A stretch of 17,465 nt of DNA from the NCBI GenBank assembly GCA_029556545.1, contig JAKQEQ010000092.1, forward strand, positions 1 to 17,465, given 5' to 3'. Of the stretch, positions 1 to 13,241 are shown piece by piece (positions within the stretch are counted from its first letter, which is position 1; every line of letters starts with the position of its first letter). Position numbers and translations under genes: made by a program. Origin of the DNA: Candidatus Hydrogenedentota bacterium. GTDB taxonomy: Bacteria; Hydrogenedentota; Hydrogenedentia; Hydrogenedentales; JAGMZX01. The notes under the pieces were generated by a model. It was not told the DNA's origin. It searched no databases and saw only the letters and a program-made list of their open reading frames with translations.

Positions 1-572
1 ACGGTGAGTGGGCCGGTGATGTTGTCAAACGCGACATCCCAGCCATCAAACACCCAGCCTACATTGGCCGCGACTATGGGGGCAACAGCAGCATCGCCAT
101 GGGCGATGGTCTGTACGAGATCACCGCCGCCAGTGCGTGTACCCTTGCCGTCCAGGTCGAAAGTCACTTGATGAGTGGCCACGCTGTATTGGGCGGTTAC
201 GGTCAGTGCACCGGTGATGTTGTCAAACGGGACGTCCCAACCGTCAAATACCCAGCCTACATTGGCCGCGACTATGGGGGCAACCGCAGCATCGCCGTGG
301 GCGATGGTCTGTACGAGATCACCGCCGCCAGTGCGTGTGCCCTTGCCGTCCAAATCGAAGGTCACCGTATAGGTGGCCACGTTGTACTGGGCGGTAACGG
401 TGAGGGGGCCGGTGATGTTGTCAAACGCGACATCCCAGCCATCAAACACCCAGCCTGCATTGGCCGCGACGATGGGGGCAACCGCAGCATCGCCGTGAGC
501 GATGGTCTGCACCAGAGCGCCGCCGCCAGTGCGTGTGCCCTTGCCGTCCAGGTTGAAGGTGACGGTGTAGGT
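1..572 (-). repeat. Tandem 198-bp in-frame coding repeats (two full units plus one cut by the edge)
   Basis: The motif GTTGTCAAAC recurs at 21, 219 and 417, an exact 198-bp period (66 codons). In protein order the units are 572-375, 374-177 and 176-1 (cut by the window edge). The copies differ by scattered substitutions and no frame-changing indels. Such close similarity suggests recent expansion or gene conversion, and copy number may vary between strains or be collapsed in assemblies. Confidence 0.92.
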
Positions 573-1373
573 ATTCGAAGTCCATTGCGCGTACAGCGTG
601 TGGTTGGATGTCGCGCCTACGATGGTTGTGGCCGTCACCAGCGTGCCGCCAGTAGACGCTGTATACCATCCGTTGAATGTATAGCCCGTGCGTGAAGTCG
701 TACCCAATGTGCCATAAGCTGCGTTGTAGGTTACGGGCTTGGAGGCTGGACTCGGCGTGGAACCACCCTGTGCGTCAAAGGTCACCGTGAAGTTCTTGGG
801 GGTGCCTTCAATCGAAACATTGTCGAGCCGGGCGCCAGGGTAATCGCCCGAGCTCGTCTGGGTGACACCCTGGAATGTGAATTTCAAACTGGTAATGGGG
901 CTCGGGAAGCTCGTCAGATCCACTGTCCTCACTACCCAGCCGCCTGTTGCGTATACGGTTAGCATATCCGTAGTATTCACCGTCGCCTTGATCCAACATT
1001 GACCAGTAGTACGTTGGTCATTATTGCACGAGAATCTCAGCGTTAATGGGTTGTAGCCGGCGGGATTGATTGAAAACGGCTCGCTTGTCGTAGCTGTACT
1101 TGCGACATTCCTTTGAACCCAGATTATTTGAACGTCCGCTCTCCATTGCATGTCGGCGTCGCCCCTCGTCCAACGATTATTGGCAAAGGGGTCGGTGGAA
1201 AAACTTTCCGGCTGACCGTTTGTTCGGTAGAGGGTCGTCTGCCCGTAAGCCGCGCAGCAAAGCACGCTAAAGAGCAGCATTGTAACACTCAATAAGACGG
1301 AGCGTGCCAAGCCATTTGATAATCTTAGTCTGGGGCGTATCGTCGGGACATTTGTGATCTTACTTTGGGACAT
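1..1373 (-). CDS. Secreted protein with Listeria-Bacteroides (InlB B-type) repeats, C-terminus beyond window
   Basis: Open from ATG at 1373 through the left edge (457 codons and still open), so the C-terminus is missing. The start is supported by AAAGGA at 1382-1387, 8 nt upstream. Residues 24-44 form a hydrophobic signal peptide with likely cleavage after AYG (residue 44). Residues 45-190 are an unrecognised beta-rich module ending in ARLDNVSIEG, which resembles the last strand of carbohydrate-binding jelly-roll domains (inference). Residues about 195-265 match the Listeria-Bacteroides repeat pattern (VTFDAQGG... GYTFNGWYTA... LYAQW). From residue 268 follow near-identical 66-residue units with GWVFDGWDV and GTRTGGG motifs. 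Proteins of this type are exported or surface-anchored, and the repeats act as spacers or adhesive stalks. Any anchor or sorting domain would lie outside the window. Ligand unknown. Confidence 0.88.
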   Translation of the reverse strand, partial: MSQSKITNVPTIRPRLRLSNGLARSVLLSVTMLLFSVLCCAAYGQTTLYRTNGQPESFSTDPFANNRWTRGDADMQWRADVQIIWVQRNVASTATTSEPFSINPAGYNPLTLRFSCNNDQRTTGQCWIKATVNTTDMLTVYATGGWVVRTVDLTSFPSPITSLKFTFQGVTQTSSGDYPGARLDNVSIEGTPKNFTVTFDAQGGSTPSPASKPVTYNAAYGTLGTTSRTGYTFNGWYTASTGGTLVTATTIVGATSNHTLYAQWTSNTYTVTFNLDGKGTRTGGGALVQTIAHGDAAVAPIVAANAGWVFDGWDVAFDNITGPLTVTAQYNVATYTVTFDLDGKGTRTGGGDLVQTIAHGDAAVAPIVAANVGWVFDGWDVPFDNITGALTVTAQYSVATHQVTFDLDGKGTRTGGGDLVQTIAHGDAAVAPIVAANVGWVFDGWDVAFDNITGPLT

Positions 1374-1406
1374 GGTGTGTGTCCTTTCGTTTTTGCTTTT
1401 CACCCT

Positions 1407-1425
1407 CCTGCCCCGCGGGGGCAGG
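1407..1425. repeat. GC-rich perfect hairpin in the leader of the repeat-protein gene
   Basis: CCTGCCCC and GGGGCAGG flank GCG, giving an 8-bp stem starting 34 nt upstream of the minus-strand ATG at 1373. Read on the minus strand it is followed by an A-rich stretch rather than a T-tract, so it does not look like an intrinsic terminator of that strand. It may be a leader structure. The 209-bp gap 1374-1582 holds nothing else I can support, and no clear promoter for the downstream gene. Confidence 0.5.
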
Positions 1426-1582
1426 CACAGCATCACACAAAGTAGGCATGCAGTCCGTTCGAGTCCTGTCCGGCACAGCGTTATCCGGAAAGACAAGGCG
1501 GAACCACGATCATATCCTGTTTTGCGCCTCATCTCTGCTGCCTTTCATGCTATGAGTTGGAGCTTCACAAATTCTTTAGCGT

Positions 1583-3115: not shown

Positions 3116-6100
3116 ATGAAGACGGCATGCTTTAGCGGTTCGGGTTTGTCCGGGGCAGGGCGCGGGACCGGATGTTCTTTGTCACGTCGGGTCTTCGCGG
3201 GGCTGATGGCGCTGGTAGTGGGGAGTGTGGCCGTCCATGCCGACGTGTTTGTGTCGCCGAACGGGTCCGACGACAACCCGGGGACGAGGGATAAGCCTTT
3301 CGCCACGCTGGAACGGGCCCGGGACGCCGTTCGGGAAATGCGGCGCAGTGGCGCGCTGCCGAAAGACGGCGTGACCGTGTGGCTGCGCGGCGGCGACCAC
3401 GCGCGGACAACGGTTCTGGAACTTACGGCGGAAGACTCGGGCACGGCAGAGGCGCCTATCGTGTGGCGCGGCTACGGCGGGGAGCGGGCGCGCGTGATCG
3501 GCGGGCGCGTGATCAGCGGTTTCCAGCCGGTGGAGGATGACTCGGTGCGCGCGCGGCTGGCGCCCCAGGCGAGGAACCATGTGCTCGTGGCTGACCTTCG
3601 CGCCCAAGGCATTCAGGATTACGGGGAACCGCGGTCGCGGGGGTTCGCGAGGCCGACCGCGCCCGCGCACGGGGAACTCTTCTTCGGCGGCATGCCCATG
3701 ACGGTGGCGCGGTGGCCGAATACAGGCGATTGGGAACACATTGCGGGCTTTCCGGAAGAGGGCGGCGTGGACGACGGTCATGGCACGAACATGGGGGCGC
3801 TTCCCGCCGGGTTCTTCTATGAAGGCGACCGGCCGTCCCGCTGGGAAAACGCCGACGACATCTGGGTGCATGGATACTGGGCCTATGATTGGGCGAACAG
3901 TTATGAGCGCATCGCGGAGCTGGACCCTGTACGCCGTCTTGTTCGGACCGCGGAACCGCATGGGAACTACGGTTTTATCAAGAAACAGCGTTTCCACTTT
4001 CTGAATATCCTGGAAGAACTCGACGAGCCGGGCGAATGGTTCCTGGACCGGCGGACCGGCATGATCTACTTCTGGCCTCCCGCGCCGATCGCATCCGGCG
4101 AGGTGTTGTTCTCGTTGCTGGAGCAGCCGCTGGTGAGATTGACGGACGCGAGTCATGTCGAGCTGCGAGGCATTGTGTTCGAGGCGACGCGCGGCAACGC
4201 GATCGAGATCACGGGCGGCGAGGGGAATAGCGTCGCCGGTTGCCTTCTTCGGAACATCGGCAACTGGGCCGTGATCATCAACGGCGGCACGAACCACAGC
4301 GTTCGCGGTTGCGACGTGTGGGACACGGGCGACGGCGGCGTATCGATGAGCGGCGGGGACCGCCGCACGCTCGCGCCCGGCAACCACGTGGTGGAGAACT
4401 GCCACTTCCAACGGCAGGGCCGCTGGTCGAAGTGCTATGTGCCCGCGGTCTCGATGAACGGCGTGGGATTGCGGGCGTCTCACAATCTCATCCATGACCA
4501 CCCGCACGCGGCCATCCTGTTCGGCGGGAACGACCACCTTATCGAGTTCAACGATATCCACCACATTGCGCTCGAAACGGGCGACGTGGGCGCGATCTAC
4601 GCGGGCCGGGACTACACGATTCGCGGCAACCGCATCCGACGCAACTACATCCACGAGACCGGGGGCGTGGGCATGGGTTCGATGGGCGTCTACATGGATG
4701 ACTGCGTCAGCGGAACCGAGGTTTTCGGGAACGTGTTCTACAAGGTCCACTGGGCGATGTTTATCGGCGGCGGGCGGGATCACCGCGTCGAGAACAACCT
4801 CTTTGTCGACTGCGACCCGGCGGTGCGCGCCGACGCGCGGGGCCTCGACAGGAGTCCGGTCTGGCGCAACATGGTGGACAAGACGATGCGGGACCGGCTG
4901 AACGCGGTTCCGCTTGAACTTTATCGTGAACGGTATCCGGAATTGAAGACCCTCGACGCCTATTACGGCCCGCCGGGCGGCGAGCCGATTGTCGGGGACG
5001 CCTTCACGGGCATCCCTCCCGAGGGCAACGTGATTGCGCGGAACGTGTGCATCGGCGCATGGAAGGAGATCACGTGGCACGCGGATGAGAAGACGTTTGA
5101 TATTCGAGACAATTTCGTCACGGATGACATGGGGCAGGTCGGCGGTCCCAAGACCGGCTTCAAGCTGCCCGCGGATTCGCCGGCTTGGGAAAACGGCTTC
5201 AAGCCGATTCCCTTTGACGAGATCGGCCTACGACCCGACGCGGACCGGGAACGGCTCGCACGCATGCACGGGACGTTGCATCGGGCGGCATGGATGGCGG
5301 AGGGTACTTACGGCGTAATGACGCACTATCTGATTGCGCCGCCGGGGTCGTCGGCTGAAGAGCGGACGGCCGCATTCAACGGGACCGTCGCAGCGTTCGA
5401 TCTGGACTTCTTCCTGCGACAGTTTGAGGACAGCCGCGCGGATTGGCTGATCTTCACCATCGGGCAGAATACGGGCTATTACTGCGGTCCGAATGCGTTT
5501 CTTGACCGCGTCGCGCCGGGCCACACCTCGGAAAGGAATCTGGTTCTGGAGCTTGCGGAGCGGGTGCAGAAACTGGGTAAGCGCTTCATCGCGTACCTGC
5601 CCGCTGAAGTGGCCGGACAGAGCGATGAGATCAAGCGGGCTTTCGGCTGGGACGAGAGCGATCAGAGCGCGTTTCTCCGGAATTACCTGGAATTTGTGCG
5701 GGCATACGCGACGGTTTTGGGCCGGACCTGTGATGGCTGGTGGTTTGACGGGTGCTATGATCCCATCCACAAAGGAGCATGGAACTGGCAGGATTGGAGC
5801 GACGCCGCGCGATTGGGGAACCCGGATGCCGTAATTGCTTTCAATGACGGCGCTTTCTGCGTGGGACGCGAGAAGCCGGTGTCGCCGTTGCAGGATTACC
5901 ACGCGGGCGAGGTCCATATGCTGGAAGAGAGCAGGATTCGCTTTGACTTCATGACCCCGGCGAAGGACGTTTACAGGAATGAAGATGGGTACTTGCGCGT
6001 GCGCGGGAAAGCCCCGGTCTACTACATGCCAACGTCGCAGTTCGTCGACGGCGTCCAGTGGCACGCATTGGTTCCCATCGATTCGTCGTTCATGGCGCCC

Positions 6101-6280
6101 GTGATTCCGGATCAGCATTACGAGGACGGGGCGCTCCTCAAGTTCCTCATGGACTGCAAAGCGGTTCGAGGAGCGGTCACGCTGAATGTGCCCATCGACA
6201 CGTCAAACGGGCACATACCCGCCGCGACCGCGGCGCAGATCAAACGCCTGGGTGAAGCCCTTGTTCAGGAGTCCCGATAG
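3116..6280 (+). CDS. Secreted two-domain glycosidase: GH141-like beta-helix plus GH29-like C-terminal domain
   Basis: Encodes 1054 residues. ATG 3116 follows AAGGAG (3100-3105); the longer frame from 3050 adds 22 residues before the signal peptide. Residues 23-42 (SRRVFAGLMALVVGSVAVHA) form a signal peptide with an SRR motif that could be Tat-type. Residues 43-110 carry the opening seen in GH141-like right-handed beta-helix proteins (DVFVSPNGSDDNPGTRDKPF, ATLERARDAV), and to about residue 700 there are parallel beta-helix rungs (NHVVENCHF, IRGNRIRRNYIHETGG, VENNLFVDCDPA). Residues about 720-1054 form a separate domain with DWLIFTIGQNTGYYCGPN (776-793) and CDGWWFDGCYD (872-882), resembling GH29 alpha-L-fucosidases; D878 is the likely nucleophile by comparison. 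Both families have fucosidase members, so a bifunctional enzyme on a fucose-bearing glycan is plausible. Substrate is inferred, not shown. Confidence 0.83.
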   Translation: MKTACFSGSGLSGAGRGTGCSLSRRVFAGLMALVVGSVAVHADVFVSPNGSDDNPGTRDKPFATLERARDAVREMRRSGALPKDGVTVWLRGGDHARTTVLELTAEDSGTAEAPIVWRGYGGERARVIGGRVISGFQPVEDDSVRARLAPQARNHVLVADLRAQGIQDYGEPRSRGFARPTAPAHGELFFGGMPMTVARWPNTGDWEHIAGFPEEGGVDDGHGTNMGALPAGFFYEGDRPSRWENADDIWVHGYWAYDWANSYERIAELDPVRRLVRTAEPHGNYGFIKKQRFHFLNILEELDEPGEWFLDRRTGMIYFWPPAPIASGEVLFSLLEQPLVRLTDASHVELRGIVFEATRGNAIEITGGEGNSVAGCLLRNIGNWAVIINGGTNHSVRGCDVWDTGDGGVSMSGGDRRTLAPGNHVVENCHFQRQGRWSKCYVPAVSMNGVGLRASHNLIHDHPHAAILFGGNDHLIEFNDIHHIALETGDVGAIYAGRDYTIRGNRIRRNYIHETGGVGMGSMGVYMDDCVSGTEVFGNVFYKVHWAMFIGGGRDHRVENNLFVDCDPAVRADARGLDRSPVWRNMVDKTMRDRLNAVPLELYRERYPELKTLDAYYGPPGGEPIVGDAFTGIPPEGNVIARNVCIGAWKEITWHADEKTFDIRDNFVTDDMGQVGGPKTGFKLPADSPAWENGFKPIPFDEIGLRPDADRERLARMHGTLHRAAWMAEGTYGVMTHYLIAPPGSSAEERTAAFNGTVAAFDLDFFLRQFEDSRADWLIFTIGQNTGYYCGPNAFLDRVAPGHTSERNLVLELAERVQKLGKRFIAYLPAEVAGQSDEIKRAFGWDESDQSAFLRNYLEFVRAYATVLGRTCDGWWFDGCYDPIHKGAWNWQDWSDAARLGNPDAVIAFNDGAFCVGREKPVSPLQDYHAGEVHMLEESRIRFDFMTPAKDVYRNEDGYLRVRGKAPVYYMPTSQFVDGVQWHALVPIDSSFMAPVIPDQHYEDGALLKFLMDCKAVRGAVTLNVPIDTSNGHIPAATAAQIKRLGEALVQESR

Positions 6281-6350: not shown

Positions 6351-7571
6351 TTAGACCGTGAGTCCGGCGAGGTCCACCTCGAGGCGCTTATTCTCAGCCA
6401 TCAATTCCTTCAGGGTCATGCGGTCCTTGCGGGCGGCGGCTTCTCGTCCGAGGATGGTGACGAGACAGCCGTCGACCGAACGTCGGACGGTCGGGTTGTC
6501 GTGGCGGCCCTTGACGATGTCGTCGTGGAAGGTGGCAATGTTACGCACGGCGCCAGCCGCGTAGAGGTTGTCGACCGTACCGCCTTCATACTCTTTTGGT
6601 CCGCCGCGCAGGAAGGCGCTGCCCCAGTAATTGAGTTGCGCATAGGCGGACGCGCCGTAGACCTGACAGGTGAGGGCGCCCGGGGCCGTGTTGGGCAAGG
6701 CCACGGCCGCGTGGTTCAGGACGAGGCCGTCGTCAAACTCGTACACGACGGAGCAGACGTCCCGCGCGTCGCCGTGCGGCTCGGGGCGGCAGACACGAGA
6801 CGCGCCCGAGGCCGCCACTGGATTATCGCCGATGACCCATAACGCCGCGTCGACGGCGTGGATGTCGTAATTCACGATGTAGTCGCCGCCGAGGGCCACG
6901 TCGTTCACCCAGATCAGGCCTTGCAGGCGGCTCTCGATGGTGGCCGTCTTCGGCGGGTCCTGGAAGCCGCCGCCGTAGCCGTAGGTCTGTACATAGGCGA
7001 GGCTGCCGAGGCCGCCATCGAGGATGCGCTGTCGCACTTCGATGTTGACGGGGTCGGTGGGCATCTGGTAGTCGACGAAGAAACAGCGGTCCTTGCGCGC
7101 GGCTTGTTGGGCCGCCGCGTCGATGGCGAGACAGCCAGGCACATCGACGGCCACGGGCTTGGCCATGTAGACATGGAGCCCGGCGTCGCACGCGGCGGCG
7201 GCGTGTTGCGGGAAGAAGTAGGGCGGCGTTTCGAGGAAGACGGCTTCGACGCCGCTCGCGATAAGGTCCCGATAGCCTGAAAGGCCGGAGAAGCAGTGTG
7301 AGTCCGGCACGTCGAATTGCCTGCCCACGCCCCGCGCACGTTCCGGGAAGTAATCCGCCACCGCCGCGATCTCGTAGCCGCCGTGGTCACGCACCATCGA
7401 GGCGATCATTCGGCCGCGTCCGCCCAAACCGATCGCGCCGGCCTTGATGCGGGAGTTGGCCGCGCTCCCGAGCGCGGTCGACGCGGCCATGACGAGAAAA
7501 GAGGTCGCGGCCGATTGCCGGACAAACCCGCGCCGCGTGATGCGTTCAGATGTGTCATTCCTGGAACTCAT
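6351..7571 (-). CDS. Tat-exported Gfo/Idh/MocA-family oxidoreductase
   Basis: Encodes 406 residues. ATG 7571 is preceded by GAGGG at 9 nt; a longer in-frame extension upstream has no family similarity. Residues 12-37 are a twin-arginine signal (TRRGFVRQSAATSFLVMAAS). Residues 43-140 form the NAD(P)-binding Rossmann fold (AGAIGLGGRGR, then VYMAKPVAV). The usual EKP motif is AKP, with Lys138 kept. GGDYIVNYDIHAVDAALW (from 228) supplies the conserved His238 and Asp241 of the C-terminal domain. Exported members are abundant in planctomycete-like genomes and act on sugars or sugar-like polyols, often with a tightly held cofactor. It is convergent with the glycosidase gene (70-bp gap) and divergent from the glycyl radical enzyme gene (205-bp gap). 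Substrate unknown. Confidence 0.9.
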   Translation of the reverse strand: MSSRNDTSERITRRGFVRQSAATSFLVMAASTALGSAANSRIKAGAIGLGGRGRMIASMVRDHGGYEIAAVADYFPERARGVGRQFDVPDSHCFSGLSGYRDLIASGVEAVFLETPPYFFPQHAAAACDAGLHVYMAKPVAVDVPGCLAIDAAAQQAARKDRCFFVDYQMPTDPVNIEVRQRILDGGLGSLAYVQTYGYGGGFQDPPKTATIESRLQGLIWVNDVALGGDYIVNYDIHAVDAALWVIGDNPVAASGASRVCRPEPHGDARDVCSVVYEFDDGLVLNHAAVALPNTAPGALTCQVYGASAYAQLNYWGSAFLRGGPKEYEGGTVDNLYAAGAVRNIATFHDDIVKGRHDNPTVRRSVDGCLVTILGREAAARKDRMTLKELMAENKRLEVDLAGLTV

Positions 7572-7695
7572 GGCGTTGATCCCTCGTTGGTCGTTGTGGT
7601 CCGCCGCGCAGTATGTGCGCGCGTGGGAGAGGCAATCAACCCGACATCGGCGGGGTCGGCGGGCGCGATTTCGTGGGCACGACGGCGGCGCGTTG

Positions 7696-7725
7696 TTGGA
7701 AGTGATTCCGGTTAGCCTATATACT
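7696..7725 (+). promoter_or_regulatory. Putative sigma70 promoter of the glycyl radical enzyme cluster
   Basis: TTGGAA (7696-7701), an 18-bp spacer, then TATACT (7720-7725); TATATA at 7718-7723 gives a 16-bp alternative. Transcription would start near 7732, about 45 nt before the ATG. It is the only AT-rich hexamer pair on the plus strand in the 205-bp divergent gap. A weaker minus-strand candidate for the oxidoreductase (TTGATT...CATACT) is not convincing. Confidence 0.5.
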
Positions 7726-7776
7726 GCCTTGGGGGGCCGGGGAACTGGGTTGCAAGCACACGAGAGCGGTCTTCCC

Positions 7777-10389
7777 ATGACACCGGACGTTATAACAGGG
7801 GTATCCCGCGACGCGGCGGTCGGAACCGCCTCGTGGGAAGGCGCGCGCATCGACCGGATGCGGCGGCGCTATCAGACGGGGGACGTGTTCATTTCGGTCG
7901 AACGGGCGAAACACTACACGGAGAGTTGGAGGGATACCGAAGGCAAGGGGGTGGCGCTGCCCGTGCGGGTGGCGCTCGCGATGAAGAACGTCTACGAGAA
8001 GATGACGCATTACGTGGACGCGGACGACCGGATAGCGGGGTATTGGACGGAGCGGTTCCTGGGATTTCCGATTGACATCGAGCGGGGTCAGTTCAATAGC
8101 GTTTTCGAAGCGGAATTGACGATGCCGCGGCTCCTGCGTTTTCGCGCCAAGTCCCTCGGGAAGGGCCTTGCCTACATGGTCCGCAAGGGCGTCCTGCGCG
8201 AGTTCCTTCGTAATCAGCGGCTTATCCGCGCGAACGGCATGCGGGCGTTGAACATGGAACTCAAGACCATGTCGCGGCGCGAGGTGAATCCCTACCAGAT
8301 TACAACACCGGACCGGAAAGTGCTGATCCGCGAATTGCTGCCTTATTGGAAAGGGCGCGCGATCGCGGACTGCCTCGAGGCCGAACTTCAGCAATCGGGG
8401 CTCTACTCGAAAGACATGTATGACTTCGTGATTGCCGTGCCTGGCAACACGTCGCGGCAGGTCATGATGATCAGTCCCGCGGCATCCATAGCCACCATTC
8501 AGGGGCACGTCATACCAAATTTTGACAGCGTGCTTGAGAAGGGGCTGCTAAGAATGGCCGCGGAGGTCGATGCGCGGCGTCTTGACGCGCCACCGGAAAC
8601 GCGGGAATTCTTCGAGGCCGTGAGTTGCGCGCTGGAAGGCGTGATCGTCTTCGCGCGCCGCCTCGCCGACGCGGTGGCGGTCGCGGCGGCGCGGGCGGAG
8701 TCGGCGGAGCAGCGCGCGGAAATGGAATCCATGCTTGCGATATGCCGTCGCTGCCCGTTGCACGCGCCCGCCACGTTCCGGGAGGCCGTCCAAAGTCTGT
8801 GGACGGTGAAGACGGCGGTCGAGCTTGCCTATCCCGTGAACCTGCACTGCTTTGGGCGGCTGGACCAGCAGCTTTACCCGTTCTACGCGGCGGACCTCGC
8901 GGCGGGCCGCATCACGCGGGAAGCGGCCACGGAACTCGTCGAGGAACTGCTGCTGAAGATCATGTCGTTGAACATACGCCCGGAGTCGAACATTCTGGGC
9001 AACTTCTATCACCGGTATCTCGGTTCGTCGCCGGTCACCCTCGGCGGGGTGAGGCCGGACGGCGCCGACGCCACGAACGAACTTACCTATATCTTTCTGG
9101 ACGCGGCGCACCGGTCGAAGGCTATCACGAATATCTCCGTTCGTATCAACCCCGGCACGCCGAATTCGCTGTTGGAACGGGTCGCCGAGTATCTTCAGGA
9201 GGGCACATCGAGTTTTTCGCTTTTCAATGACGCGGTGAATATCGAGGCTATGACGCGGCGTGGGTTCAGCGAGGAAGACGCGCGGGACTATGCCGTCATG
9301 GGCTGTGTGGAGACGACCTGCCCGGGCAAGACGGGCGGGATGAGCGCGAGCGCGCTGCAACTCTCGAAGGTCCTCGATATGACTCTCCGGAATGGGGACA
9401 TGCGGACGATTGCGGGCACCGTCCGCGGAGAAGGGCTGCGCACGGGCGACCCGAGCTCCTTCGAGTCGTTTGACGAACTCGTAGAGGCGTTCCTGAAGCA
9501 AGCGCGTCATCTTATCGCAAGAATTGTGGATGCCTCGAATCTGCGCGATCGCCTTTACGCGGAATGGCTGCCCGCGCCCATGATCTCGGCGTTCATCGAT
9601 GGTTGTCTCGATAGCGGGAGAGACGTCACGGCGGGCGGCGCGCGGTATGATCTGGCGGGAATCTCGATGATCAACGCGTTGGCGAACGTGTTCGATTCGT
9701 TGTTGGTGATCAAGAAACTTGTGTTTGACGAGAGACGATTCGGGCTCCGTGAATTTCTTTCGGCCATGGACGACAACTTCGCCTCGCGCCAGGATGTCTT
9801 GCATGCGGTGCGGCAGGTGAAGGGAAAGTGGGGCAACGGCGACTCGGACACGGACGCCATGGCCCGCCGCATCGCCGGGGAGTTGTTTGCGGAGACGTAC
9901 CGGCACACGAATTTCAGGGGCGGCCCGTTTGTCGTCTACATTATCAGCATGATTACCCACACCATCGACGGCCGACTCTCGGTCGCGTCCCCTGATGGAC
10001 GCAAGGCGGGCATGCCGTATGCCGCGAGCGGCAACCCGTATAATGTCGAGCATTGCGGCGTGACTGCGGCGCTGCGATCGGTGGCGGCGCTGCCGTTCGA
10101 GGATGTCATGGGCTGCGCGGTGAACATGAAGTTCCACCCGAACGCCATCGGGAAAGGACCAGTCGGTCGCGCGAAGTGGGCGGCGCTTCTTCGCACCTAC
10201 TTTCAGATGGGCGGCCCGCAGTTGCAGCCCACGGTGGCCGGCGCCGAGACGCTGCGCGCGGCCCAGCGCGACCCGGATCAGTATCGGGACCTGATCATCA
10301 AGGTGGGGGGGTACAGCACCTATTTCGTCGACCTGGGGAAGGAGATTCAGGAAGAAATCATCGCGCGCACCGAACATGCGGCTTCGTAG
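7777..10389 (+). CDS. Glycyl radical enzyme, PFL2 / dehydratase-lyase type
   Basis: Encodes 870 residues, typical for the family. ATG 7777 has a weak upstream GAGAG; an in-frame TTG at 7750 is an alternative. The PFL domain shows [16 protein letters not shown] and [14 protein letters not shown]. The catalytic loop AVMGCVE carries the thiyl Cys510 and Glu512, the Cys-x-Glu arrangement of glycerol/diol dehydratases, choline TMA-lyase and relatives rather than the Cys-Cys of true pyruvate formate-lyase. The C-terminal loop is [14 protein letters not shown], with the radical Gly at 845, 25 residues from the end. It departs from the usual R-V-[SA]-G-Y pattern (Lys for Arg, Gly before the radical Gly, Thr after Ser). 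The activase follows 14 bp downstream. Such enzymes are oxygen-sensitive, implying anaerobic metabolism. Substrate cannot be assigned from sequence alone. Confidence 0.93.
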
Positions 10390-10403
10390 CAGGAAGCACC
10401 GCC

Positions 10404-11315
10404 GTGTTGACAGGCACCGTCTTCGACATTCAGAACTATGCGATTTACGACGGCCCGGGCATTCGCACGGCGGTCTATCTCAAAGGCTGTCCCCTCCGTT
10501 GCTATTGGTGTCATAATCCGGAATCGCATCGCCCGACGCCCGAGATGGCATGGCGGCGCGAGCGGTGCGCCCGGTGCGGCGGTTGCGCGGCGGTCTGCCC
10601 GGAAGCGGCGTTGCGCGTGACGGAAGACGGCGTGATCCGCGATTGCGAGCGGTGCGCCGTGTGCGGGCGGTGTATCGCCGCGTGTCCTCGCGAAGCCATG
10701 GAGCGCGTCGGTTACGAGGTCACCGTGGAGGAAGTAGTCGCGGAAGTAGTGCGCGACAAGCCGTTTTTTGACAATTCCGGCGGCGGCGCGACGATCACCG
10801 GCGGAGAACCGACTTATCAAAGCGCGTTCTTGCTGGCGTTGCTTGATGCCTTGCGCCGGGAGGGCATTCATACGGCCATCGAGACTTGCGGTTATTACGC
10901 TGCGGAACTGAACCAATCCCTCGTTGACACGACGGACTTGTTTCTCTTTGACTTGAAGCACGTGGATTCCGAGGCGCACCGGCGCGGGACGGGGGTCCCG
11001 AATGAGCAAATCCTCGCGAATTTCAAGGCAGTGCTTGCCGCCGTGGGCGGTGAACGTATCACGCCGCGGATTCCGCTGGTTCACGGCTTCAACACGGCGC
11101 CCGACAGCATAGACGCGTTTGTCGCCTTCTTGAGGGCTTGCGGGTATGATGGCGAGGTGCATCTCATGCCTTGCCATCGTTGGGCGAGAGGAAAATACGA
11201 TCGACTGGGTCGACAGGACGCGTTTCGGGAGGACGGCGTGGTGGAGGAAAGCGCGTTGAGCGAAATTGCGGGGCGTTTTGCGGCAACGGGTCTTGTTCCG
11301 GTGTGCCACGGATAA
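10404..11315 (+). CDS. Glycyl radical enzyme activase (radical SAM, two extra 4Fe-4S sites)
   Basis: Encodes 303 residues, the expected length. GTG 10404 is preceded by AGGA at 9 nt and lies 14 bp after the enzyme it should activate, so the two are cotranscribed. The radical SAM motif is C29-x3-C33-x2-C36 ([15 protein letters not shown]). Next come two ferredoxin-like cluster motifs: C55-x2-C58-x2-C61-x3-C65P and C84-x2-C87-x2-C90-x3-C94P. The insert is typical of activases for dehydratase-type glycyl radical enzymes and is absent from PflA. TITGGEP (130-136) is the SAM-binding GGE motif. It abstracts the glycine H atom of the partner using SAM and a reduced cluster. The last codons lie in a 30-bp sequence repeated 102 bp downstream. 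Confidence 0.95.
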
Positions 11316-11435: not shown

Positions 11436-13241
11436 TTGAGAGTGCTGGTTACGGGCGCGGACGGCTTGCTGGGAAGCAACCTGGTCCGGCGGCTGCTCGA
11501 CAATGGCTACCAGGTTCGCGTGCTGGTCTATCCGGGCAGTGGATCGACGTCGCTCGACGGGTTGGATGTCGAGTGGGTCGAAGGCGACCTGCTCGACGGC
11601 GCACGCGCGCTTGCGGACACGATGCGAGGGTGCGAAGGCGTTTTTCACGTGGCGGCTATTACGGACCTCTGGGCAGACCCGGACTTTACGTGGAAAGTCA
11701 ATCTGGACGGTACGCGCAACGTGCTTGACGCCTGTGTGGCCGCGGGCGTGCGGCGCTTGCTTTTTGTGGGATCGGCGAGTTCCTTCGAGCCGGGCCCCAT
11801 GGAGAAGCCCGGCGACGAGTCGGGCGGCTTTCCCGAGGTTTATATCGGTACGGCGTACATGGAGTCGAAGCATCGGGCGGCGGAGCTTGTGCGCGCCTAT
11901 GTGCGCGAGAAGCATCTCGACGCGGTCATTGTCGCGCCGACCTTTCTTCTGGGCCCTTATGACACGCGGCCCAGCGGCGGCGAACTGGTGCGCCGCTTCT
12001 GCGAGAAAGGCATGCGGGTCACGTCTCCGGGCGGACGCAACTTCGCCCATGCGCGCGACGTGGCCGAAGGCGCGCGGCTTGCATTTGAAAAGGGGCGGGT
12101 CGGCGAGACGTACATCCTGGGGGGTGAGAACCTGGGCTACAAGGATTTCTTTGGGCGCGTGGGGCGGATCGTCGGACGGGACGGCCCTCGCGGCGTTCTG
12201 ACGCCGTCCGTTATTCTCGCCGCGGGTTCACTGGCGTCGCATATGGGCAAGATAACCGGGCGCAGGCCGAAGTTTGACAAGAACATTGCGCGGTTGTCAC
12301 TGCTGAACGCTTACTACAGTTCCGCCAAGGCGATTGCGGAACTCGGCATGCCGCAGACGCCCGTCGAGGCGGCGATCCGGGATTCCGTGCGTTCGCTCGT
12401 TGAATACGGGCACCTCTCGCTCGACGGGCGCGCGCAATTCTCCGGGAAGGTGTCGTTGGTGACGGGCGCGAGCCGGGGCGTGGGCTTCGCGACGGCGCGG
12501 GCGCTGGTGTTGCGCGGGGCGAAGGTCGTCATCACGGCGCGGGGCGCACAACGGCTCGCGGCGGCGCGGGCGGAATTGGAGGCGCTGGGCGGCGAGGTCG
12601 AGTCGGTTTGCGGCGACGTCGGCGTATACCGCGACGCGGAGCGGATGGCCGCCGCGGCCCTGGACCGCTTCGGACGCCTCGACATGGTGATCAACAACGC
12701 CGGTGTGTCCATGCGCGGGGCATTCGAGGAGCTTTCGCCGGAAGTGTGCCAAAGCGTGGCCGCGACGAATTTGATCGGGTGCCTGAACGTGTCAAAGGCC
12801 GCCATCGCCGAGATTGTCAGGAACCGGGGAAACCTCGTTTTCATTTCCAGTATCGCGGGACTTTTCGGCTTGCCCGGCGCGTCCGTCTACTGCGCCACGA
12901 AGAAAGCGCTGAGCGGCCTTGCGGAGTCCCTGCGGCTGGAGCTTATCCCGAAGGGGGTGCACGTGGGCGTGGTGTTTCTTGGTTTCACGGAACACGATCC
13001 CGAGAAGCGCATACTTGCGGCGGACGGCAGCCTCGTGCCGCCGGACCGGCCGGCGCATCACACGCAAGCCCATGCCGGGCGGCTAATCATTAACATGCTG
13101 GCGAAGCGCAAACGACAACTCATCATGACACCGGCGGGCAGGGTCGGCGCATGGGCCTACCGCGTGTCGCCCCGGCTTCTGGAGTGGCTGATCCTGAAGG
13201 CGCAGGCGGGGCAGTGGGGTATTTACAGGCGGTTTTCTTGA
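11436..13241 (+). CDS. Fusion of an NAD-dependent epimerase/dehydratase and a classical SDR
   Basis: Encodes 601 residues. TTG 11436 is chosen because AGGGAGGA lies 6 nt upstream and the Rossmann motif begins at once (MRVLVTGADGLLGSNL). Residues 1-330 are an extended SDR (TGADGLLG at 6-13; Y141-x3-K145 in AYMESK) like sugar epimerases and dihydroflavonol/3-beta-hydroxysteroid-type reductases. Residues 338-601 are a classical SDR with TGASRGVG (343-350), NNAG (420-423) and triad Ser472, Tyr485, Lys489. The two are joined in one frame through a short linker, so both active sites look complete. The usual state is separate proteins, and the fusion implies sequential or paired redox steps on one substrate, perhaps a lipid or sugar-lipid. 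The VTT membrane gene follows 23 bp downstream. Substrate unknown. Confidence 0.9.
   Translation: MRVLVTGADGLLGSNLVRRLLDNGYQVRVLVYPGSGSTSLDGLDVEWVEGDLLDGARALADTMRGCEGVFHVAAITDLWADPDFTWKVNLDGTRNVLDACVAAGVRRLLFVGSASSFEPGPMEKPGDESGGFPEVYIGTAYMESKHRAAELVRAYVREKHLDAVIVAPTFLLGPYDTRPSGGELVRRFCEKGMRVTSPGGRNFAHARDVAEGARLAFEKGRVGETYILGGENLGYKDFFGRVGRIVGRDGPRGVLTPSVILAAGSLASHMGKITGRRPKFDKNIARLSLLNAYYSSAKAIAELGMPQTPVEAAIRDSVRSLVEYGHLSLDGRAQFSGKVSLVTGASRGVGFATARALVLRGAKVVITARGAQRLAAARAELEALGGEVESVCGDVGVYRDAERMAAAALDRFGRLDMVINNAGVSMRGAFEELSPEVCQSVAATNLIGCLNVSKAAIAEIVRNRGNLVFISSIAGLFGLPGASVYCATKKALSGLAESLRLELIPKGVHVGVVFLGFTEHDPEKRILAADGSLVPPDRPAHHTQAHAGRLIINMLAKRKRQLIMTPAGRVGAWAYRVSPRLLEWLILKAQAGQWGIYRRFS

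Follow-up and report, generated by a model that had tools for sequence, protein, structure and literature searches.

Our analysis indicates that a single gene of an uncultured Hydrogenedentota bacterium encodes what is, according to sequence comparisons and predicted models, one secreted protein consisting of two glycosidase modules of unrelated fold, which are normally encoded by separate genes. The component enzyme types are known, with one partner coming from a little-studied GH29-like family, but their combination in one chain is new. The gene (3116..6280, + strand) lies in the window, i.e. the entire stretch of 17,465 nucleotides analysed here, which is one complete contig of a single metagenome-assembled genome (6.1 Mb in 195 contigs, 96% complete); its open reading frame is intact, with no internal stop and a length of 1054 amino acids. 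A predicted export signal (residues 1-41, SRRVFAGLMALVVGSVAVHA; 3116..3238, +), suggested by a hydrophobic N-terminus at residues ~22-41 and in particular by the hydrophobicity of residues 26-40, precedes a GH141-type right-handed β-helix module (residues 42-700; 3239..5215, +), which continues via a junction (residues ~700-723; 5213..5284, +) into a GH29-like TIM-barrel module, probably of the FucWf4 type (residues 714-1054; 5255..6277, +). The AlphaFold2 model of residues 41-1054 has a mean pLDDT of 86.4, with low values mainly where the β-helix module ends and along the linker. Both searches and fold comparisons bear out the two-fold architecture put forward in an earlier note on this sequence, i.e. 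a GH141-type β-helix joined to a GH29-type TIM barrel with a catalytic Asp.

The GH141-like nature of the N-terminal ~700 residues, also anticipated in that note, is clear at the levels of sequence and fold. As a single sequence, this part finds PDB 9rx2 (7.9e-20) and the GH141 enzyme BT_1002 (2.2e-10), and a family profile made from 21 relatives aligns with 9rx2 from start to end (2.8e-59) and matches BT_1002 with E 1.1e-19. The best fold match is again BT_1002 (5mqp; Z 37.7 over 471 residues), with other β-helices reaching Z values of at most 31.8. BT_1002, the founding GH141 enzyme and an α-L-fucosidase acting on rhamnogalacturonan-II, thus shares the β-helix fold and the catalytic Asp pair with our N-terminal module, but the two are only 24% identical and the module is nearer in sequence to 9rx2. 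The GH141 insertion domain (PF21231, GH141_M) is matched partially, with 22.9 bits and therefore below the Pfam cut-off of 27; a match to this domain is present in 18 of the 21 relatives. The essential Asp residues of BT_1002, D523 and D564 (PMC10154630, PMC12786026), can be identified in its PDB chain because of their spacing of 41 residues, which assigns them to the Asp of YDVAGVY and the Asp of YTDEGSS. Alignments with 9rx2 and with a second GH141-like protein of the genome (L005) carry these positions over to D490 (4583..4585, +) and D528 (4697..4699, +), both of which are invariant across the 21 relatives, with D490 being the only one of the two that MAFFT places reliably.

The family of this module is common in the class (matches in 63 of 68 genomes, with up to 75% identity), and most of the close β-helix relatives inspected terminate shortly past a conserved IGL/IGP stretch. 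Two relatives that are 75% identical to the N-terminal module, one in a planctomycete (G070:C49:54423-56447) and one in a different family of the same order as the window (G003:C17:6129-8171), have no shared neighbours, which may point to horizontal transfer. GH141 as a whole includes an endo-xylanase as well as endo-fucanases (PMC12786026); the latter, Wf141_1 and Wf141_2, can be likened to our module by family, i.e. by the GH141 fold and a probable polysaccharide substrate in common.

For the C-terminal module, the model of residues 714-1054 is a TIM barrel (pLDDT 90.5, pTM 0.91) that most closely resembles the GH29-like α-L-fucosidase FucWf4 of Wenyingzhuangia fucanilytica (PDB 9pnj, 9pnk; Z 29.4 over 282 residues), followed by the GH29 enzyme AlfB (Z 27.3) and GH107 endo-fucoidanases (Z 26.0). 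FucWf4 is also its best sequence relative having a structure (4.6e-15 with the single sequence, 8.7e-35 by profile), and their nucleophile Asp residues align, but identity is 18%, FucWf4 has ~200 residues preceding the barrel and it carries AHGT where the family of the C-terminal module has GQNT. FucWf4 itself lies outside the GH29 clusters in a network study and frees terminal α1,3/4 fucose from sulfated fucooligosaccharides (PMC11189522). Neither the C-terminal domain alone nor the whole protein gave a GH29 match in Pfam or NCBIfam (including PF01120, Alpha_L_fucos), so the homology to GH29 is seen through the family, 23 of whose 25 members match Alpha_L_fucos, at best with 6.7e-16. In a tree, this family together with FucWf4 is split from the canonical GH29 proteins of the genome with 100/100 support; some branches are long, and that of FucWf4, on the family's side of the split, is very long. 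The last ~330 residues, described as GH29-like in the earlier note, do form a GH29-type barrel with its Asp in the model, but one of a GH29-like kind, probably of the FucWf4 type, that lies outside the canonical GH29 proteins of the genome and has the HHDG motif replaced.

The C-terminal domain belongs to a GH29-like family that occurs in many phyla, stands apart from canonical GH29 and is normally a stand-alone secreted enzyme. The species-representative collection holds 233 loci, of which the best 80 are distributed over Hydrogenedentota, Armatimonadota, Planctomycetota, Verrucomicrobia/Lentisphaeria, Bacteroidota, Paenibacillaceae and others, and the nearest relatives (78% and 77% identical) stand alone, each with a signal peptide of its own. 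One branch of the family (L026, L033, L034, L035 and L037) carries an F5/8-type (galactose-binding-like) domain at the C-terminus, and its pocket motif has become MQxS/TR.

The catalytic apparatus of the barrel combines features of two glycosidase families. D878 in WWFDG (5747..5749, +), already singled out in the earlier note and invariant in the family, is located at a strand end (model residues 161-165) and aligns with the nucleophile of GH29 and GH107; in GH29 α-L-fucosidases such as AlfB and BT2970, which have the TIM barrel in common with our module, this Asp is found at the end of strand 4. D878 is thus the predicted nucleophile, and E932 in DYxxGE (5909..5911, +), likewise invariant, is the likely acid/base. 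E932 aligns with the catalytic His294 of GH107, a residue that stands in for Glu217, the acid/base of GH29 (PMC11943901). Since a Glu is present here in 25 of 25 members, the family appears to have its motifs arranged as in GH107 but the Glu as in GH29, and this Glu would correspond to the GH29-B acid/base. The GH107 endo-fucoidanases MfFcnA4 and P5AFcnA have a similar fold (Z 25-26) and share the motifs WFD...GNPxAxxAFN...DYTxG up to the acid/base position, but use a His there, and the likeness in sequence is restricted to part of the barrel. The 'WH' of QWHAL, considered as an equivalent of the GH29 'WE' acid/base, was rejected, as its His is a Gln in several relatives. H737 in GVMTH (5324..5326, +) is invariant and aligns with the first conserved His of GH29. 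GQNTGYYCGPN, however, had been mistaken for a GH29 motif: it aligns at a position where canonical GH29 proteins, the ones from this genome among them, show KHHDGF or KHHEGF in place of the GQNTGYY of the C-terminal module. We read HHDG as the fucose-pocket motif of canonical GH29 proteins, and the family has QN(T/S)G instead, with Q784-N785 (5465..5470, +) at the position of the His-His pair in our protein and the Gln invariant in 25 of 25 members.

What might such a protein do? Both modules are built like enzymes that act on fucose-containing polysaccharides. Our reading, which we regard as somewhat probable when taken as a whole, is that of a secreted two-module glycosidase whose modules act in turn on one branched, fucose-containing and possibly sulfated glycan. 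The β-helix with D490 and D528 would cut within, or at a branch of, the polysaccharide, and the barrel, using D878 as the nucleophile and E932 as the acid/base in a retaining double displacement, would take off an α-linked residue of L-fucose or of a close relative with L-galacto configuration. That fucose is the target of both modules is something we infer, because a xylanase and endo-fucanases are found in GH141 as well. The genome contains 42 sulfatase-domain matches and 8 Alpha_L_fucos matches; counting against fucose are the replacement of HHDG by QNTG, a search of the genome for canonical L-fucose isomerase (PF07881) that found none, and the window, in which no further fucose-specific gene is recognizable. 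As gene fusions hint at enzymes acting together, this one pairs a GH141-type enzyme, from a family whose roles (as fucosidase, xylanase or endo-fucanase) are unsettled, with a widespread GH29-like family among whose near relatives FucWf4 is the one characterized member found. It thereby provides a testable substrate hypothesis for both modules and could be a naturally occurring catalyst that processes fucosylated glycans in two steps.

The same two catalytic modules could also serve a different sugar, with the C-terminal and perhaps also the N-terminal module acting on e.g. α-L-galactose and the pocket substitutions reflecting a change in specificity. Several observations fit such a change, i.e. 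the invariant Gln in place of the first His of HHDG, the 100/100 separation (with long branches) of the family and FucWf4 from the canonical GH29 proteins of the genome, and precedents in both families, since GH29 already has an α-L-galactosidase (PMC11189522) and α-glucosidases (PMC10154630) and GH141 contains a xylanase (PMC12786026). However, the nearest solved relatives of known activity (FucWf4, AlfB and GH107) are described as fucosidases or endo-fucoidanases, and we consider another sugar a serious but rather unlikely explanation. Also doubtful, and going further, is the idea that the C-terminal module stands for an uncharacterized glycosidase family of many phyla, placed between GH29 and GH107 and with a sugar specificity of its own, so that the fusion, by naming the partner activity, would reveal a one-chain machine for an undescribed branched fucoglycan.

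The fusion is unusual, as the earlier note had expected, being known from this genome only among those searched. No second case was found in the 67 other genomes of the class, an 82-residue junction query gave no spanning match in 291 + 392 + 387 genomes (1,070, from three other phyla; in the sets of 392 and 387, matches with E <= 1e-8 only were considered), and none of the best 80 of the 233 loci of the C-terminal family is fused to a GH141-like β-helix. A planctomycete candidate, in which a 75% identical β-helix lies in an ORF running off its contig, was rejected as a second fusion since its last ~60 residues are unlike the barrel. Literature searches on 9PNJ, 9RX2, Hydrogenedentota GH141 and GH29-GH141 fusions yielded nothing useful. 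Genes of the two families mostly lie far from each other in other genomes, and the flanking genes of the window show no synteny with the loci of six relatives.

This single occurrence and the distance between the families elsewhere would suit functionally unlinked modules, i.e. a fusion that arose in one lineage through a chance arrangement of genes and leaves the modules with separate substrates or has turned one of them into a binding module. Against this stand the intact catalytic residues of both modules and the constraint on the C-terminal domain. Its lineage-specific codon changes in the window are 41 synonymous to 10 non-synonymous, compared with 38:16 and 51:15 in stand-alone relatives; being mostly synonymous and as constrained as in these relatives, they show that the domain is still under purifying selection. 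Moreover, the two types are neighbours in another phylum: on a contig from Victivallales (L070), 3 nt separate the end of a GH141-like β-helix gene, which has the equivalent Asp motifs (DAGAIY, GIYLD), from the start codon of a C-terminal-family gene (48% identical to our module) encoded on the same strand. This pair supports a functional link of the two families, although the adjacency may be due to chance because the 9.6-Mb genome concerned (G069) contains 68 matches to the fused protein. These are mostly to the β-helix, which appears strongly expanded in this genome. On balance, an accidental union of unrelated activities seems improbable.

The junction itself is precise. The β-helix part extends to its natural terminus, IGLRPDADRERLARMH (compare IGVYPDKDRKRMEKMR at the end of a relative with 75% identity), and is followed immediately by the sequence with which the mature barrel begins, GTLHRAAWMAEGTYG. 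A second signal peptide of the kind that stand-alone relatives of the C-terminal domain possess is missing, and we propose an in-frame fusion of two genes as the origin. Although the fusion comes from one metagenome-assembled genome of 195 contigs and has no second example, a misassembly that linked two separate genes in a chimeric contig is very improbable, because an in-frame join exactly between a natural protein end and a mature start, without a second signal peptide, would rarely arise from a chance chimera.

The substrate of the fused protein is not apparent from the neighbouring genes of the window, which include those for a LacI-type regulator, a Gfo/Idh oxidoreductase and a glycyl radical enzyme plus activase. 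The glycyl radical enzyme, which adjoins its activase (7444-11315, + for both), belongs to the PFL2/glycerol dehydratase group but scores below the cut-off of every NCBIfam enzyme of known function; a diol dehydratase, if that is what it is, would fit the use of deoxy-sugars. At 3-1532 (-), the window contains the start of a secreted-looking protein that is cut by the contig end and features Listeria-Bacteroides repeats and several near-identical units of ~70 residues (TVTFDLDGKGTRTGGG...). Finally, a second fusion is found at 11436-13241 (+), where an HpnA-like sugar epimerase and a short-chain dehydrogenase are joined in a single ORF of 601 residues.
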